In this document: positions 12,531 to 53,844 of the stretch, in pieces | Position numbering within the stretch: position 1 is the stretch's first letter | How the letters are laid out: every line of letters begins with the position of its first letter | Source of the DNA: Hyphomicrobium methylovorum | GTDB lineage: Bacteria; Pseudomonadota; Alphaproteobacteria; Rhizobiales; Hyphomicrobiaceae | Direction of reading: 5' to 3' | DNA: 64,000 nt | Assembly: GCF_013626205.1 (NCBI RefSeq) | Contig: NZ_QHJE01000001.1 | Span: 434,001-498,000 of the forward strand | Notes under the pieces: generated by a model | What the model was told of the DNA's origin: nothing | What the model saw: the letters and a program-made list of their open reading frames with translations, nothing else | The model's database searches: none | Position numbers and translations under genes: made by a program

Positions 12531-12584
12531 GAAAGTGTTGGTCGGAGCGAGAGGATTCGAACCTCCGACCCCTTGCTCCCGAAG
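12531..12584. repeat. attL: left 54-bp attachment repeat (3' part of tRNA-Pro)
   Basis: This 54-bp stretch is identical to 53,760-53,813. It covers the 3' half of a tRNA-Pro gene from the anticodon loop to the CCA end plus 7 bp beyond. The match ends abruptly on both sides. The tRNA 5' half is missing here, so this is the displaced original 3' end and marks the left border of the prophage. Confidence 0.93.
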
Positions 12585-27246: not shown

Positions 27247-29349
27247 TTACTGCGAGGTTTTTGACGCCTCGGATTGGCTTGGCTCTGGCGTCATGAGTTG
27301 CTTCGCTTTCAGAGCGTTATCGAGATGCGCCGCGTCGAGACCGTTGAGCCGTTCGGCGTGATCCATCGGCGCACTATGCAGTTGTGACTGTTTGATCAGG
27401 TTTTCGAGGTACTCGCCCTTGATCTGAACCTTCGTCAGTTCGGTCTTGGCCTGTGTTTCTTCAACCTTGGCCTGTTCACCTGCGATCTGAAGCTGCGCCG
27501 CCTGCTGCTGCATTTGCTCGGCCATCTGCTGCGCCGGATCCGGTGGCGGTGGCGGTGCGTTCGGATCTTGCGTTGCCTGCTGGGGCAGCATCGCCTTGAG
27601 CCGTTTGGCCGCTTCCTGTGCGTCTGGGATATCCATGTTGCGAACGGCGATATCGGCCAGCAGCGGCGCGAGTTCGGGCGGCAAGGCTTTCATCAACTCA
27701 ACAATGGCGTCGGCGGCTTCAAGGCGCTTCGATGCGTAACTCGGGCCGATCGTCACCCGCACGTCGAACCGTCCTTGGTTCAGGTCGTTGACGATGACGG
27801 GCTGGCCCTCGTTGTCATAGAGCGTCTTGTTGATCGGGATAAACTGTTCTGATCCGTCCTCTGCCAACATCCGAGCCGTGCGCTCGTTGTCGTAAATCTT
27901 CGGAATGAGATCAATCAGGACGCGACCGCACTGTTCGATCGAGCGTTGCAGGTTGTCCTGGTAGTGGAAGTTTGCCGTGTCGCCCTGGTTCTCACGGCGC
28001 CGAATGGCGACGCCGGAGGTTTCATTGCTGCGTGCGCCAAGGCTCGCATCATAGATGCCGGTCGTCGCCTTGATATCATCCGTCGCCATCTCGCCCTCTT
28101 GCCAAAGGGCCTGCGGCGGTTCGGGGGCGTTGATACGATCCGGCTTCATGCCCGGCGCCGTCGGGTCTGGCGTATAGCGGAGATAGGTGCGGTTCTTGGT
28201 GTTGAGCGAATCCCAGTCCGACTTGTGCTTCGCGATCATCGTGTCGGTGACGAGGTACGGGCTCTTCGGGCTGAGCGCGATGTGTTCCGCCGCAGCCGAG
28301 CGATAGAAGTTGTACAGCTGTTGTGGGTCGCGCGCATTGCGGAGAAGCCCGTGGCGGATCGTCGTCGTTTCTAGCGGGATCTCTGTTCCGATGACGGCAA
28401 TGATCGGAATGTGATTGCCAGGCCATTTGTTCGGGCCGGACAGCACCTCCGATCCGGACACGAGGCTTTGCTCGATGCGATAGCCGTTGGCCTCCCGCTT
28501 CTGCACGATCGGACCGAACTGCATCTGCATCTGGTAGAGCCTGATCATGTCAAGCCCGGTGATGTCGGCGGTCGCCCCGCTTTCGAATGCCGCGATCGTC
28601 TTCTTCTGTGGCTTCTTGCACCAGTATTCCGCAATCAGCACATGGTCGTTCTGCGCCCAAAAGATGCTGCTGGACATGCCATTCGCGCTGTTGAAAGAGC
28701 GGATCGCGTCGACACTGATCGGCTGCGCATCAGGATATTTTTCCTCGAAGGTATCCTTCGGTATCATCTCGACGACGATGCACCACATAGCATCTGAGCG
28801 ATCGGGCTTGACGGAAGCAGGGTCCCAATAGACCGAGAACGGATATGGGATCAGCTCGATCGCGACTTCCTGATCGAACCCGTCGTCTTCAATGTACTGG
28901 GTCGTGATGCGCCAGTGGCCGATACCGCAGGCGGCTGCGTGGTAAGCCGCCGTCGCATAGACGTGCTTGGCGCTCGACCGGTACTGAATATCGGAGATGA
29001 TACCGTCATAGGTCTTCGCCAGCTGCGGATCGGTGTTGCCATCAACGGGCGTCGCTTTGATCACCGGTGCATTCTGGCGAATGTCATTGGTGACCTGGTG
29101 TAGGAACTGCGGGAGCTTGTTGACCGTCAGCATCGGCCGGTTGACGCGGGCCTGCTTGGCATATTCCGGCCATTGATCACCGGCGAGAAAGCGCATATCT
29201 GCGGCGCCCTCTTCACGGTTGCCCCTGTCGTGCGTATAGGCGCGCTCCAACCGCTTGCGCACGGTCCCAACGAGGTCTTCGGTGGGTTGCTTTGCCGTTT
29301 CAGTTGCCGGTCGATTGCCGGTCACTTGCGGCGGTTGCGCCGCTGGCAT
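27247..29349 (-). CDS. Portal protein, P22 gp1-like
   Basis: The 700-residue protein is a P22-type portal: the N-terminal region 'ADMRFLAGDQWPEYAKQAR', the core 'PRMLTV'-like 'RPMLTVNKLPQFLHQVTNDI', and 'GARSNETSGVAIRRRENQGD' are family marks. The C-terminal 130 residues are Gln/Ala-rich and coiled, like the P22 barrel. It forms the dodecamer through which DNA passes. The ATG at 29,349 was chosen; 25 further in-frame residues upstream overlap another small gene and are unlike the family. Confidence 0.92.
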   Translation of the reverse strand: MPAAQPPQVTGNRPATETAKQPTEDLVGTVRKRLERAYTHDRGNREEGAADMRFLAGDQWPEYAKQARVNRPMLTVNKLPQFLHQVTNDIRQNAPVIKATPVDGNTDPQLAKTYDGIISDIQYRSSAKHVYATAAYHAAACGIGHWRITTQYIEDDGFDQEVAIELIPYPFSVYWDPASVKPDRSDAMWCIVVEMIPKDTFEEKYPDAQPISVDAIRSFNSANGMSSSIFWAQNDHVLIAEYWCKKPQKKTIAAFESGATADITGLDMIRLYQMQMQFGPIVQKREANGYRIEQSLVSGSEVLSGPNKWPGNHIPIIAVIGTEIPLETTTIRHGLLRNARDPQQLYNFYRSAAAEHIALSPKSPYLVTDTMIAKHKSDWDSLNTKNRTYLRYTPDPTAPGMKPDRINAPEPPQALWQEGEMATDDIKATTGIYDASLGARSNETSGVAIRRRENQGDTANFHYQDNLQRSIEQCGRVLIDLIPKIYDNERTARMLAEDGSEQFIPINKTLYDNEGQPVIVNDLNQGRFDVRVTIGPSYASKRLEAADAIVELMKALPPELAPLLADIAVRNMDIPDAQEAAKRLKAMLPQQATQDPNAPPPPPDPAQQMAEQMQQQAAQLQIAGEQAKVEETQAKTELTKVQIKGEYLENLIKQSQLHSAPMDHAERLNGLDAAHLDNALKAKQLMTPEPSQSEASKTSQ

Positions 29350-29353
29350 CGCG

Positions 29354-29503
29354 TTATCGTAGATCAAATGTGATCTCCACGCGGACGCGGGTCGCGTCGC
29401 TCTCGATGTCATGCGATTGCACAAGCCGTTCGATGCGGACGTTGCTTGCCTTCAGTTTTTCTAAGGCGTCGGTGATCGTGTCTTTGAGGCGTTGCTCGTC
29501 CAT
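29354..29503 (-). CDS. 49-residue protein between terminase and portal
   Basis: A short open frame fills the gap between the terminase stop and portal start. Its ATG overlaps the terminase stop (TGATG) and its TAA is 4 bp before the portal ATG, so it is tightly coupled on both sides. The product begins with a charged amphipathic helix ('LKDTITDALEKLKASNVRI') and ends with a strand-like 'TRVRVEITFDLR'. Function unknown. Confidence 0.7.
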   Translation of the reverse strand: MDEQRLKDTITDALEKLKASNVRIERLVQSHDIESDATRVRVEITFDLR

Positions 29504-45174: not shown

Positions 45175-45548
45175 GACGTCCGACGACATTGGACGAGCAG
45201 TTGGCCTGGTGGCGTTCAAATCAGAATGGCTCGGTTCACGCTGACGGACCCGAGTGTGGGTATTTCAAACGCCGCATGGAGGCGTGGAGCAAAACATGGA
45301 TACCGGTTCGAATTTATCTGGAACAGCCGATCGATTGGGAAACGGGCGAGCTCGCAGCGCCGGAACAATTTCGGCTCGACGCGAACGGACGCCTGCTGAC
45401 GGATCACTGGACGATATGGGAAGCGTGGCAGCGTCTACGTCCGGTGACGATGGACGAGTGGAAATGGCTGACAGCACGGCAATCCCTCAGAAGTGGAAGC
45501 CCAGCGACAGCGTATATCTCAGACTTGCGAGAGCGCAGTCTGATGTGA
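45171..45548 (+). CDS. Early phage protein, Trp-rich
   Basis: The 125-residue protein is rich in Trp and Arg ('LDEQLAWWRSNQNG', 'DHWTIWEAWQRLRPVTMDEW'). Its 3' end overlaps the Erf-like gene by 85 nt in another frame, and its start overlaps the previous stop. Function unknown. Confidence 0.6.
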   Translation: MRRPTTLDEQLAWWRSNQNGSVHADGPECGYFKRRMEAWSKTWIPVRIYLEQPIDWETGELAAPEQFRLDANGRLLTDHWTIWEAWQRLRPVTMDEWKWLTARQSLRSGSPATAYISDLRERSLM

Positions 45549-46153
45549 GGGTGATCACGCTCGATGCTGATATCGAGGTGAAGAAGGAGGGAAAGACCGT
45601 CGCCAAGTACAAAGGCGTCACCTCTGCTCAAGTTGTCACTTTCGCAAAAAGCGCTCTACTCGCCAACGGCATTGTTTTCTACCCCGTCATGAAGCGCGAC
45701 GGCGTACAGGTCACCGGCAATAAAACTGCCGTCTATATCGATGGTCACTTTGTATCGGTCGATGACGATACCGACCGCATCGTAACCGGCGCATGGGGTG
45801 CGGGTACCGATTTCAACGACAAGGATTACTCGAAGGCGTTTACGAACGCCGTCAAGAATTGCCTGGCCAAGATGCTCGGCATGTCAACGCTTGAGGACGA
45901 TAGCGCCGAAGCGACGCCGCATGAGCCCGAGCACAAACCGCGTGCGGTCAAGAATGCTGAAGCCCTGACAGACGTCGCCATTAAGTCGTGGGCGGACGCT
46001 TTCAAGGTTGCTCTCGACGGTTGCCGGAGCCTCAAACAACTGAAGCAAGTGAGGGCCGACAACGCTCCGATGATGAACAACGCGGGCGTTCCTCAAATCA
46101 CGAAGGATTACTTCCTCGACAAGATTGCAGCTCTGGAGGGTGTTCTCGAATGA
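45464..46153 (+). CDS. erf: ERF-family single-strand annealing recombinase
   Basis: The 229-residue protein fits the ERF superfamily of P22: 'SDVRVITLDADIEVKKEGKT', 'FAKSALLANGIVFYPVMKRD' and 'WGAGTDFNDKDYSKAFTNAV' followed by 'LAKMLGMST' correspond to the conserved core, which anneals ssDNA for phage recombination or circularisation. The C-terminal 80 residues are a variable helical domain. The start at 45,464 is chosen where the domain begins; earlier in-frame codons overlap the upstream gene. Confidence 0.82.
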   Translation: MADSTAIPQKWKPSDSVYLRLARAQSDVRVITLDADIEVKKEGKTVAKYKGVTSAQVVTFAKSALLANGIVFYPVMKRDGVQVTGNKTAVYIDGHFVSVDDDTDRIVTGAWGAGTDFNDKDYSKAFTNAVKNCLAKMLGMSTLEDDSAEATPHEPEHKPRAVKNAEALTDVAIKSWADAFKVALDGCRSLKQLKQVRADNAPMMNNAGVPQITKDYFLDKIAALEGVLE

Positions 46154-47232: not shown

Positions 47233-47288
47233 CCACCGCGTTCATCGTCGCTGCTTACTTCCACAAGGATACGGACAATTGGCCATGA
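47229..47288 (+). CDS. 19-residue linker ORF
   Basis: A minimal open frame whose ATG overlaps the preceding stop and whose TGA overlaps the next ATG (47,285). It may serve only to carry ribosomes across the gap. Protein function is doubtful. Confidence 0.35.
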   Translation: MTTAFIVAAYFHKDTDNWP

Positions 47289-48034
47289 CAGACACGCAAA
47301 TCGATACCAACCGGCTTTCGCAGATCACGGTTCTCGGAGAGGGTTCACATACGTCATTCGATGATGGACTTTGTGCAATGGAAGCTGTGGCGTACATCGC
47401 AGGCGAACCCTGGTCGGATCATCCGGCGTGTGCATGTCCCGTCATCGCAGCATTTATGAGATCATGGAACGACGGGCTACCGAGCGACGAAGATCGAAAT
47501 CGGCTATTGCTCCCGCTCGTGCCGAAACTCGTCGGTACGCGCGCCACGCCGGAAATCGAACAGCGGCGCGCGACGATGGCCGCCGACTGGTTGATCCGCA
47601 CGCATACGGTTGCGTGGTTGCGGCTAGCAAAACTTGATGCCCAGGCCGATGCGCTCGCCGCGTTGCCGGAGATCACCGACTTTGCTCAGTGCCCATCTCT
47701 TATGCCGACGCTCGAAGCGGTGCGGCGTGATGCGACCGCTGCTAGGGCCGCTGCCTGGTACGCCGCCGGGGCCGCTGCCGGGGACGCTGCCTGGGACGCT
47801 GCCTGGGCCGCTGCCTGGGATGCTGTCGGGGCCGCTGCCTGGGATGCTGTCGGGGCCGCTGCCTGGGCCGCTGCCAGGGCCGCTGCCGGGGACGCTGCCT
47901 GGGACGCTGCCAGGGCCGCTGCCGGGGACGCTGCCTGGGACGCTGCCTGGGACGCACTGAAACAGACTACGGCCGAACTCCAGATCTCGGCTGTCGCACT
48001 CGTAGAGCGAATGATCGCTGTGGAGGCACAATGA
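47285..48034 (+). CDS. Phage protein with C-terminal Ala/Trp tandem repeats
   Basis: The 249-residue protein has an N-terminal domain known from many phages ('GLCAMEAVAYIAGEPWSDHP', then 'CPVIAAFMRSWNDGLP') and, from about residue 150 to 225, tandem repeats of AAWDA/AAGDA type, probably an amphipathic helix with regularly spaced Trp. The DNA there is a tandem array of degenerate 12-bp units. The final 25 residues are non-repetitive. Function unknown. Confidence 0.72.
   Translation: MTDTQIDTNRLSQITVLGEGSHTSFDDGLCAMEAVAYIAGEPWSDHPACACPVIAAFMRSWNDGLPSDEDRNRLLLPLVPKLVGTRATPEIEQRRATMAADWLIRTHTVAWLRLAKLDAQADALAALPEITDFAQCPSLMPTLEAVRRDATAARAAAWYAAGAAAGDAAWDAAWAAAWDAVGAAAWDAVGAAAWAAARAAAGDAAWDAARAAAGDAAWDAAWDALKQTTAELQISAVALVERMIAVEAQ
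47746..47956 (+). repeat. Tandem 12-bp repeat array inside the Ala/Trp-repeat gene
   Basis: About 17 imperfect units alternating GCTGCCTGGGAC and GCCGCTGCCGGG types, in frame. Exact longer duplications are visible (for example a GCTGTCGGGGCC block occurs twice). Copy number may vary by slippage without changing frame. Confidence 0.85.
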
Positions 48035-48606: not shown

Positions 48607-48984
48607 ATGGTCGCGATCAATTTTCAGCGCAATTTCGCCGCCGACATTCGGTCTGGCCACAAAACGCAGACGATCCGGCAGAGCGCGCGCTGCAAGACCG
48701 GCGACACGCTGCAACTGTACACCGGGCAGCGGACGAAGAATTGCGAACTGATCGGCACCGCGACGTGCGCGATCTGCGAGCCAATCACGATCGCCGAGGA
48801 TTATCTCGCGACCGGCTATTTCCGATTGCCGTCAGGCGACGCGCATCACATCGCGAAGATTGACGGCTTCCCAAACCTCGCTGCGATGCGTGACTGGTTC
48901 CGAGAGCGCTACGGCCTGCCGTTCCAAGGTTACCGCGTCATGTGGAATGACTTCGCACCGGCCGAGAAGGGAGCGGAGTGCTAA
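48607..48984 (+). CDS. ASCH-domain protein
   Basis: The 125-residue protein has an ASCH fold pattern: 'INFQRNFAADIRSGHKTQTI' (start of the domain, with Lys/Thr), 'CKTGDTLQLYTGQRTKNCEL' and 'GFPNLAAMRDWFRERYGLPF'. ASCH domains bind RNA or modified nucleosides; phage members may act on modified bases or host RNA. Starts directly at the previous stop. Confidence 0.75.
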   Translation: MVAINFQRNFAADIRSGHKTQTIRQSARCKTGDTLQLYTGQRTKNCELIGTATCAICEPITIAEDYLATGYFRLPSGDAHHIAKIDGFPNLAAMRDWFRERYGLPFQGYRVMWNDFAPAEKGAEC

Positions 48985-49208
48985 TGCCATCGCAGACAGA
49001 GCTCTTTCCGAGGCCGCCCCGTCCGCACGTCTGGCGCATGCACGTACACGATGCGGGCGACCGCGTAATCGAGTTCCAGTGCCAGCGCTGCGGGCACAAC
49101 ACCGGATGGATCGATTGGGACAACGGCGTCGCAAAGGCAAAGCGCGGCATCCCATGTCCGAAGTGCAATGCAGAGACGGCCGAGAGCATTCAACAGAAAG
49201 GACAATGA
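48984..49208 (+). CDS. Small zinc-ribbon protein
   Basis: A 74-residue protein with two CxxC pairs ('CQRCGHNTGWIDWD' and 'CPKCNAETAE') and a preceding 'PRPHVWRMHVHDAG' segment. Probably binds one zinc ion. The ATG at 48,984 overlaps the upstream stop; role unknown. Confidence 0.62.
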   Translation: MPSQTELFPRPPRPHVWRMHVHDAGDRVIEFQCQRCGHNTGWIDWDNGVAKAKRGIPCPKCNAETAESIQQKGQ

Positions 49209-49209
49209 C

Positions 49210-49479
49210 ATGACCGACCACCAGCCGATGCCCGTGAAGGGCTACCAGCCGCAATCCGACGACAATGTTGCTCTGGCCAACGAAGGCAAGCTGCTCGAAG
49301 AACAATATCTGCGCTGGCTCGACAAACTCGATGCGCTCCCGACCGCCGCGACAACGCAGGACGGCCGCGAAGCAAAGGGCATCGACAAGCGGATGGTTGC
49401 GCTCGCGCGCACGAACATCCAGCAGGGCGCGATGTGGGCTATTCGCTCAATCTTTCAACCGAAGCGGATCACCGACTAG
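49210..49479 (+). CDS. acb2: Acb2-type cyclic-nucleotide sponge (anti-CBASS)
   Basis: The 89-residue protein matches the Acb2/Tad1 hairpin domain family: 'MPVKGYQPQSDDNVALANEG', 'LLEEQYLRWLDKL' and the C-terminal 'ALARTNIQQGAMWAIRSIFQ' followed by PKR. Acb2 is a helical phage protein that forms hexamers and traps the cyclic di- and trinucleotide signals of CBASS, blocking effector activation. Tyr12 and Lys27 lie where I recall the ligand contacts Tyr11 and Lys26 of the Pseudomonas phage protein. It sits in the early operon, as expected for counter-defence. An 8-residue insertion separates the two helices. Confidence 0.87.
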   Translation: MTDHQPMPVKGYQPQSDDNVALANEGKLLEEQYLRWLDKLDALPTAATTQDGREAKGIDKRMVALARTNIQQGAMWAIRSIFQPKRITD

Positions 49480-49510: not shown

Positions 49511-49936
49511 GTGAGCGAGACCGAAACAAAACCAGTTAGCATCGCAGCAGGCTTCCGCGCGATGTGGGGAGTGATTGCAGACGCGGCCGACGCATCGCGC
49601 GGGCGGAACGCCGATGCACGATACTCTGCAATGCACGATGCAGCGACCAAGGCCAACCTTTGGCTCACGTCACGCAACACGATCGGCGCGCTGATGAATA
49701 CCTGCGCGAAGCACCAAGACGAGATCACGTCTCTACGCGCACAACTCGCTGATGCGAAGGCAAAGGCCATAGAGGAATGCGCGAAGACCGCGGAAGCCTT
49801 CGGCGAAAATCACGGCGTACAGTGGGGCAACCGCAAGCGATTTGAGTTGCGCGATTTGCAGCGGGCAATGCGCGGCGCGTGCAATCTGATCGCCGAAGAC
49901 ATTCGCGCCCTCGCCTCTCTCAAGGAGGGAGAGTAG
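49511..49936 (+). CDS. Early phage protein, helical
   Basis: The 141-residue protein starts with GTG at 49,511, preceded by a GGGAG ribosome site; no ATG fits. It is helical with a coiled segment ('QDEITSLRAQLADAKAKAIE') that occurs in many phage hypothetical proteins. The same GAAGGGAG-type site precedes several genes here. Unknown role. Confidence 0.65.
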   Translation: MSETETKPVSIAAGFRAMWGVIADAADASRGRNADARYSAMHDAATKANLWLTSRNTIGALMNTCAKHQDEITSLRAQLADAKAKAIEECAKTAEAFGENHGVQWGNRKRFELRDLQRAMRGACNLIAEDIRALASLKEGE

Positions 49937-52436: not shown

Positions 52437-52805
52437 ATGGCGGACATTGAACCCGTCTATTCACTGAAAGAGGCCGTGGCGAAAGTGTTGCGGGGCCGGT
52501 GGACCGTTGCCTCCTTGCGCACAGAGATTCGCAAGGGCCGGTTGAGGCCGACCCGCATTGCGGGCAAATTGGGCGTAACAGACTCGGCTCTGGGGGAGAT
52601 GCTGAAACTATGCCAAGACGCGCCAAAGGCCCAAGACTGTTTCTCAGACCCGCCCGCCATCAAAGACAGGCAACCTGGGTCATTGTCGACCGAGGACAAG
52701 AAACTAGCACTGGATGCAGCGAGGGAGACAGCGAGGGCGCTGAAAGCGCGCTTGCCCGTTACATCACACAGAAGTACGAGCCGCCGCGCACCAACGGACG
52801 CCTGA
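52437..52805 (+). CDS. Excisionase-type DNA-binding protein candidate
   Basis: The 122-residue protein starts with a winged-helix-like segment ('YSLKEAVAKVLRGRWTVASL', then 'RTEIRKGRLRPTRIAGKLGV'), the plan of MerR-like excisionases that bend DNA at att sites. Its 3' 196 nt overlap the integrase gene in another frame. Position directly before the integrase supports the role; similarity is only partial. Confidence 0.62.
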   Translation: MADIEPVYSLKEAVAKVLRGRWTVASLRTEIRKGRLRPTRIAGKLGVTDSALGEMLKLCQDAPKAQDCFSDPPAIKDRQPGSLSTEDKKLALDAARETARALKARLPVTSHRSTSRRAPTDA

Positions 52806-53734
52806 GCAAAACCGCCATCCCCGACGTCATCAACCTCTATCTCACCGAGCACGCCCCGAGCACATCCGATAAAGGCGTGTGGATTGGCTACATGGCCGTC
52901 TCAGTTCTCGACTGGTGGGGAGAAAAGGTTCTCTCGGATGTCAACAAAACGTCCTGCGCGGACTATGTTAAATGGCGGGTCAAACAGAATGTGACCGACC
53001 AGACCGCGCGCCACGAGCTCAAGACGCTGCGTGCCGCGATCAACTATTATCACGCCAGTTCCTACGGGCCTCTCGACGCCGTTCCCGTCGTCACCCTGCC
53101 GGCCAAATCCCCGCAGAAAGTCGATTATTGGCTCACCCGTAAACAAGTAGCCGACCGTCTACGTGCGGCCCGGCGAATCCCGCGCTGCCAGCACGTCGTT
53201 CGTCTGATTCTTATCGGCGTCTATTCTGGAACACGCCCGGGGGCCACAATGGCGCTCAGGTGGATTCCGTCGACAACGGGTGGCTGGATAGACCTCGACA
53301 GCGAAACGCTGCACCGACGTGCGATCGGAAAAAAACAGACAAAAAAACTTCAGCCGCCGGTTCGGATTCATCGCCGATTGCTGCCCCATCTCCGCCGCTG
53401 GCGCGAAGCCGACATGGCGAAAGGCATTACGAATGTGGTGCATTATTTCGGAGGGGAAGTGGCTGACGTCCACAAGTCGTGGGCAAAGGTCGCCACGGGC
53501 GCTGGCCATAAGCCGGACGGGCCGCACATCACACGTCACACCTGCGCGACGTGGCTGATGCAGTCAGGCGTCGATCTCAACGAAGCGGCGAGCTATCTCG
53601 GGATGAGTCCGGAGACCTTGTGGAACACATACGGTCACCATTCGCCAGCCATGATGGGCAACGCCGCACGCGCGGAAGGGCGCCGAATTCCAACGAGCAC
53701 CGTTGCCTTTCCCGGGCGGAAACCCGGGCGGTGA
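52610..53734 (+). CDS. int: Tyrosine recombinase, phage integrase
   Basis: The 374-residue integrase has an N-terminal arm-binding part ('RRAKGPRLFLRPARHQ'), a core-binding SAM-like domain (about 60-150) and a catalytic domain with Arg in 'GVYSGTRPGATMAL', 'HITRH' (about 306-310), and the nucleophile Tyr341 in 'WNTYGHH'. It recombines attP and attB. The ATG at 52,610 gives the usual N-terminus 'MPRRAKGPRL'; a longer upstream frame is not coding. It ends 25 bp before attR. Confidence 0.95.
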   Translation: MPRRAKGPRLFLRPARHQRQATWVIVDRGQETSTGCSEGDSEGAESALARYITQKYEPPRTNGRLSKTAIPDVINLYLTEHAPSTSDKGVWIGYMAVSVLDWWGEKVLSDVNKTSCADYVKWRVKQNVTDQTARHELKTLRAAINYYHASSYGPLDAVPVVTLPAKSPQKVDYWLTRKQVADRLRAARRIPRCQHVVRLILIGVYSGTRPGATMALRWIPSTTGGWIDLDSETLHRRAIGKKQTKKLQPPVRIHRRLLPHLRRWREADMAKGITNVVHYFGGEVADVHKSWAKVATGAGHKPDGPHITRHTCATWLMQSGVDLNEAASYLGMSPETLWNTYGHHSPAMMGNAARAEGRRIPTSTVAFPGRKPGR

Positions 53735-53759: not shown

Positions 53760-53813
53760 GAAAGTGTTGGTCGGAGCGAGAGGATTCGAACCTCCGACCC
53801 CTTGCTCCCGAAG
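53760..53813. repeat. attR: right 54-bp attachment repeat
   Basis: Identical to 12,531-12,584. Here it forms the 3' part of an intact tRNA-Pro, so the phage supplied a replacement 3' end. The identity starts in the anticodon loop, the usual crossover zone for tyrosine integrases in tRNA genes. Confidence 0.93.
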
Positions 53814-53844
53814 CAAGTGCGCTACCAGGCTGCGCTACGCTCCG
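53768..53844 (-). tRNA. tRNA-Pro(CGG), intact, at the prophage right end
   Basis: A 77-nt cloverleaf on the minus strand: acceptor CGGAGCG pairs with CGCTCCG, the anticodon loop TTCGGGA gives anticodon CGG, the T loop is GTTCGAATC, and CCA is encoded. The 3' part from the anticodon loop lies in the att repeat. Confidence 0.96.

Follow-up and report, generated by a model that had tools for sequence, protein, structure and literature searches.

The DNA stretch examined here (the window, 64,000 nucleotides) contains a prophage in which a short gene, acb2, is found at 49210-49479 on the plus strand. The question it raises is whether the product belongs to the Acb2 family of cyclic-nucleotide sponges, as the first-pass annotation had proposed, and, if so, which defence signal it would hold. 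Our reading, in which we place high confidence, is that acb2 encodes an Acb2-family sponge whose likely target is the type I CBASS resident in the same chromosome. The host genome (3.45 Mb in 4 contigs, completeness 100, contamination 0.14) carries a single gene matching the family profile PF24729.

The prophage and the gene block of acb2

The prophage, of ~ 41.3 kb, is bounded by an exact direct repeat of 54 bp, the left copy of which lies at 12531-12584 while the right copy, at 53760-53813, overlaps a tRNA-Pro gene (CGG, 53768-53844, minus strand) next to the integrase. The latter, a tyrosine integrase (52640-53734, plus strand; PF00589, 5.5e-7), closes a series of small genes on one strand, acb2 among them. 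The prophage also encodes a P22-like portal protein (27247-29424, minus strand; PF16510, 2.4e-181) and an O-like replication initiator, and the block of acb2 holds an ERF-like single-strand annealing protein (45470-46153, plus strand) with a below-cut-off PF04404 match (4e-4). The gene had been placed in the early operon of the prophage: the prophage itself is borne out by the repeat and the integrase, and we infer the early type of the block from its gene content (the ERF-like protein and the integrase) and its layout.

The start of acb2 falls one base past the stop of the preceding gene, and an AAAGGA ahead of it resembles, by eye, a ribosome site. The product of the gene directly upstream (48984-49208, plus strand) is small and zinc-ribbon-like, with Pfam matches below cut-off; the gene two upstream (48607-48984, plus strand) matches phrog_8581 and is ASCH-like in our own judgement; the one directly downstream (49511-49936, plus strand) gave no informative match. 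Promoter and terminator scans around acb2 returned matches at chance level only. The protein encoded at 47285-48034 (phrog_3416, annotated as of unknown function) consists in its C-terminal half of successive AAWDAAWAAAWDAV-like repeats.

Judged by sequence comparison, the early region is a mosaic. Megablast of a 10-kb early region found no match among phage records, and when the same 10 kb was searched in 31 genomes, gene-length DNA matches were obtained only in G003 and G008, which at the protein level hold homologues of a few window genes and are both without a PF24729 match. The 48607-48984 gene has a 78% identical homologue in one of these, the genus relative G003 (L122). Furthermore, six stretches around order-level acb2 relatives were compared with the window at E up to 1e-8, and the sole homologue was one late gene (in L125); the acb2 relatives in those stretches themselves miss this threshold against the window acb2.

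In Mu-like phages the acb2 homologue is found elsewhere: it follows the major capsid gene at a distance of 0.4-1.0 kb, in the same orientation and not among the early genes. This placement was seen at L015:2455-4291 and in 22 of 80 IMG/VR loci. It may be meaningful, since capsid mutations are reported to help phages escape CBASS in the available part of a review (PMC10419184).

Membership of the Acb2 family

The acb2 frame opens with ATG and closes with TAG, giving 89 codons and a stop within a whole open frame of 136 aa. The coordinates and strand first given for it are correct, and the quoted motifs are all present: PVKGYQPQSDDNV at residues 8-20, EEQYLRWLDKL at 30-40, ARTNIQQG at 66-73 and AIRSIFQPKRI at 77-87. 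The HMM search that the first-pass annotation had proposed against the Acb2/Tad1 family gave a strong match: PF24729 (Acb2/Tad1 hairpin) was the sole Pfam match, with an E value of 2.5e-15 and 56.8 bits, about twice the curated cut-off of 27. The best PHROG is phrog_717 (E 4e-16), whose annotated function is unknown, and the NCBIfam and PADLOC profiles gave no match to the protein. On phmmer against the PDB (E up to 1) the only matches are T4 Vs.4 (1.8e-4) and two p26/Acb2 sequences (0.0022 and 0.0033). The profile match, these PDB relatives and the top fold matches described below agree, and the 89-aa prophage protein is confirmed as a member of the Acb2 family.

Relatives were detected by tblastn (E up to 0.01) in 298 of 50,697 phage records, every one below 60% identity, the best of them in Rhizobium phages at ~ 46%. 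Closer sequences exist in IMG/VR, of which the best 80 of 230 were used, the nearest (L020) being 66% identical. The homologues in Rhizobium, Rhodobacter, Brevundimonas and Caulobacter phages share 37-47% identity with the prophage protein and are annotated as hypothetical proteins, so that a set of unannotated small proteins in these phages are, by sequence, Acb2 homologues. They differ from it by a shorter inter-helix stretch in the five that were aligned, and in some by N-terminal extensions. Indeed, the homologue of Caulobacter phage Jess A (L018:2725-3291) has ~ 90 extra residues before the match, and that of Rhizobium phage RHEph10 (L014:2872-3252) ~ 40. A gene adjoining another acb2 homologue (L016:3444-3983) is annotated as a TIR protein, yet its Pfam matches are DUF1937/DUF4406.

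Compared with the Acb2 of Pseudomonas phages (p26; 8h2j, 8h2x, 8ixz), the prophage protein is alike in size, hairpin fold, a GY near the N-terminus, the Lys at residue 26 of p26 and a similar C-terminal end, whereas the stretch between the helices is different and identity in the structure alignment is ~ 25%. The two also differ in carrier, since the prophage Acb2 belongs to a temperate phage whose host is alphaproteobacterial, a class taken from the first-pass annotation and from the phage relatives. T4 Vs.4 (7uq2) is of equal length, and its Tyr8 and Thr68 are both kept despite low identity; T4, unlike the prophage, is lytic and also carries Acb1.

Predicted fold and inter-helix loop

The AlphaFold2 model built from 60 sequences (mean pLDDT 88.3, pTM 0.71) displays two helices, at residues 17-41 and 60-79, forming the long antiparallel pair found in solved Acb2. 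On Foldseek, the nine top-ranked matches are without exception Acb2 or Vs.4 (8h2j, 8h2x and 7uq2 among them, the best being Pseudomonas Acb2), with probability 1.00 and TM 0.61-0.68, at E values of 2e-3 to 1e-2 (no match reaches 0.001) and at 20-25% identity to the solved proteins; the best non-Acb2 probability among the matches listed is 0.60, for a Rop hairpin. A fold without the paired helices and a Tyr/Lys pocket had been named in advance as what would speak against Acb2; in fact the helices are predicted and the Tyr/Lys pair is conserved. Acb2 is described in the available part of a review (PMC12043709) with a separate short helix before the hairpin; this helix does not appear in the model, where residues 1-10 are of low confidence (mean pLDDT 63).

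By its name and description, PF24729 covers the hairpins of Acb2 and Tad1 alike, which brings in the alternative of a Tad1-like sponge that would take up gcADPR and block Thoeris. Tad1 is described, however, with a four-strand sheet N-terminal to its two helices (PMC12043709, available part), a domain that the prophage protein appears to lack in the model: its first helix runs from residue 17, and the 136-aa open frame leaves little room ahead of it. Moreover, one ThsB_TIR profile (E up to 0.001) gave no match in the host genome. Disfavoured by its domain layout and by this result, the Thoeris reading was set aside and strikes us as scarcely credible.

An inserted run between the helices had also been singled out in the Acb2 protein. 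This loop comprises residues 42-59 (49333-49386, plus strand) as delimited by the predicted helices and by the row lengths of the alignment, and the gap from D38 to R61 is 22 residues, the longest of 60 rows, in which the commonest value is 10. The insertion is therefore real against close relatives, but it amounts to ordinary variation, since the length varies from 9 to 22 across the 60 rows (six others at 16-21, three of them at 20-21) and the solved T4 and Pseudomonas proteins are longer there, as the gaps fall on the query side of the alignment. On these grounds the loop was rejected as a special feature or new domain.

Residues of the ligand pocket

Tyr12 (codon 49243-49245) and Lys27 (codon 49288-49290), both on the plus strand, align gap-free by HMMER to residues 11 and 26 of the 8h2j chain and are found in 60/60 rows. 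Tyr11 and Lys26 of the Pseudomonas (PaMx33) Acb2 are, we take it, ligand residues, and the correspondence that the first-pass annotation had drawn by offset is upheld on this assumption. The GY-x14-K spacing is kept in 80 of 80 IMG/VR relatives, including 21 outside the 60-row alignment. Tyr12 aligns as well with Tyr8 of T4, and Thr68 (codon 49411-49413, plus strand) with T4 Thr68, the position being Thr in 57 rows and Ser in 3 of the 60. Changes of these T4 residues are reported to matter, Y8A being binding-deficient and T68M lowering affinity (PMC12657230, in the text available).

The 60 rows consist of the window protein and 59 of the 80 IMG/VR loci; 21 loci were omitted by hand, 7 because their frame lacks an ATG close to the match, the other 14 being mostly near-duplicates. 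Invariant throughout are G11, Y12, K27, E30, E31, D59, R61, M75, R79, P84 and R86, and an equally invariant M1 is an artefact of which loci were chosen.

The hairpin could in principle have been re-used for a non-immune job, for example as a structural or regulatory phage protein, and the widely differing positions of the homologues (within an early-type block in this prophage, past the major capsid gene in Mu-like phages) as well as the N-terminal extensions of some of them would suit such a role. All pocket residues that could be mapped are kept, which argues against it, and we consider this reading very unlikely beside that of an Acb2 sponge.

The resident CBASS and its predicted signal

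The host genome was inspected for CBASS, as had been suggested, and a two-gene type I system was found at G000:C1:611029-612875 (= L009:11030-12876; minus strand) by PADLOC and PDB comparison. It consists of a CapE-like patatin phospholipase followed by a CdnE CD-NTase and lies outside both the window and the prophage, ~ 128 kb off on the same chromosome. PADLOC matched the phospholipase effector at 1e-159 and the cyclase (PDLC00788) at 1.3e-114. Against the PDB, the phospholipase is nearest to the cUMP-AMP-activated 9iom (1e-125, 422 bits), cGAMP-activated ones reaching only ~ 1e-16, and the best match of the cyclase is the cUA-producing RmCdnE (6e0k, 6.4e-53). With Pfam SMODS, the cyclase stays below cut-off (~ 20 bits vs 26.5), and its class therefore rests on the PADLOC and PDB CdnE matches.

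As in the known CdnE/CapE type I systems, which signal with cUMP-AMP, both the cyclase and the phospholipase have their catalytic motifs, read from the translations: GGGAKG, GTSTG and DGG in the phospholipase, GS...DSDVD and a later Asp in the cyclase. The system is predicted to be intact. On one side it is flanked by a cupin, a 3-dmu-9_3-mt (ubiquinone-methyltransferase-like) protein and uvrA, on the other by a carbonic anhydrase; a PADLOC scan of the cupin, 3-dmu-9_3-mt and carbonic anhydrase neighbours gave no match. The operon is, as far as its genes can be read, of the two-gene type I layout, with no Cap2/Cap3 or HORMA/TRIP13 ancillary genes. The expectation that the phage meets CBASS or Thoeris-like signalling is hence supported for CBASS, which the host possesses, but not for Thoeris, for which the ThsB_TIR profile found nothing. 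A further source of cyclic nucleotides, the cyclic oligoadenylates of type III CRISPR, was looked for with one Cas10 palm profile, which had no match in the host genome.

The signal of the resident cyclase was predicted from two sequence rules, both in the available text of PMC10442399. RmCdnE makes 3',3'-cUA and recognises uracil in the acceptor site with Asn166, whose change to Ser makes cAA the main product, and makers of cyclic di-pyrimidines have an (R/Q)xW motif. By alignment with hand-counted positions, the host cyclase has an Asn (in IDNFPK) at the place of Asn166, which is occupied by Ser in the purine-making EmCdnE, and Val-Thr-Trp at the site expected for (R/Q)xW, so that this motif is missing. 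Given Asn at this position and no (R/Q)xW, the predicted product of the host CdnE is therefore 3',3'-cUMP-AMP (cUA).

Reviews credit Acb2 with a high affinity for cUA (PMC12043709, PMC10419184), and Acb2 proteins are described as binding several signals, with ligand ranges that differ between homologues (PMC12043709, available part). Furthermore, T4 with Acb2 and without Acb1 is reported to overcome a type I CdnE system from Yersinia aleksiciae whose signal the authors give as 3'3'-cUA, while a 3'2'-cGAMP system was not defeated by Acb2 alone in the same test, according to the portion available (PMC11722364); the same Yersinia aleksiciae enzyme was given earlier as a source of 3'3'-cUU (PMC9117128, likewise in part). 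For the prophage Acb2, cUA would rather probably be the main ligand.

Proposed action of the prophage Acb2

By homology, the prophage protein would assemble as a hexamer of helical hairpins and bind cyclic di- and trinucleotides while leaving them intact; this sequestration would keep the free signal under the level that the CBASS effector requires. The 3',3'-cUMP-AMP expected from the resident CdnE would switch on the CapE-like phospholipase, leading to membrane damage; with the signal held uncut by the hexamer, we propose that the phospholipase would stay off while the phage replicates. Acb2 would be made with the other early genes at prophage induction, or on entering a CBASS-positive relative, and would sequester the signal for the time that phage production takes, to the presumed benefit of the phage. 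The position of acb2 fits the review account, as available, of Acb2 acting in lysogenic induction rather than maintenance (PMC12043709).

A more specific form of this proposal, in which the sponge is adapted to 3',3'-cUMP-AMP, the long inter-helix stretch adjusts its pocket or hexamer to this pyrimidine signal and the host is thereby enabled to carry and induce the phage, seems to us improbable, though worth stating. On this specific reading, counter-defence and its target share one chromosome, and but for the sponge the induced cell would die of its own CdnE/CapE system. As far as the literature surveyed tells, experimental work on Acb2 has centred on Pseudomonas and T4-like phages. A temperate-phage Acb2 and, in the same chromosome, a CBASS with a signal predictable by two sequence rules would form a self-contained natural pair, in which one could ask whether the sponge works when the prophage is induced, in the lysogenic state or solely when the phage enters new hosts. 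The prophage Acb2 is ordinary in kind and above average in testability.

Distribution of acb2 and CBASS genes

Among 397 genomes of the order, a CD-NTase was found in 4 of 19 Acb2-positive genomes vs 53 of 378 others (one-sided p 0.28), and p becomes 0.48 when this genome is left aside; there is no significant association. The 397 genomes of three profile scans were taken as one draw. Acb2-positive means over the PF24729 cut-off, two of the 21 genomes with any match being below it and dropped, and the 57 CD-NTase-positive genomes are the union of PF18144 (46) and PDLC00788 (18), a set that includes below-cut-off Pfam matches and misses other cyclase clades. With both genes in 4 genomes and a p of 0.28, the pairing seen here is one case and not a trend.

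Over the cut-off, PF24729 occurs in 3 of 60 relatives' genomes, including none of the 21 other genomes of the genus. In these 21, the CBASS genes are uncovered among the DNA matches listed, though their flanks are covered. The scarcity of acb2 in relatives and the uncovered CBASS genes thus point to separate histories of the two. Both look recently acquired, CBASS being uncovered in the genus matches listed and G003, which has relatives of some early genes of this prophage, being without PF24729, and they may have met by chance.

These histories and the missing association, together with the several signals that Acb2 proteins are reported to bind (PMC12043709, available part), speak for an alternative in which the protein is an Acb2 sponge but the ligand that matters is a different dinucleotide, or a cyclic trinucleotide, from the CBASS of other hosts, the resident cUA-type system being coincidental. 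Against it, the resident CBASS has intact motifs and is of the kind reportedly defeated by T4 Acb2 (PMC11722364, available part). We regard this alternative as possible but clearly the less probable one, and retain the resident CBASS as the likely target.

A literature search of limited reach found no report of an alphaproteobacterial Acb2. In other phages, Acb2 is annotated in a Microbacterium phage (PMC13348362) and a CBASS antagonist is mentioned in mycobacteriophages (PMC11953737), both sources being available in part. Two genomes, G042 and G004, gave weak PF24729 matches that we discounted as false after inspection of the frames. In the family relative G028, a 77-aa protein (L005:1492-1725, minus strand) passes the PF24729 cut-off without the GY pocket motif, which suggests a divergent or non-sponge member of PF24729.
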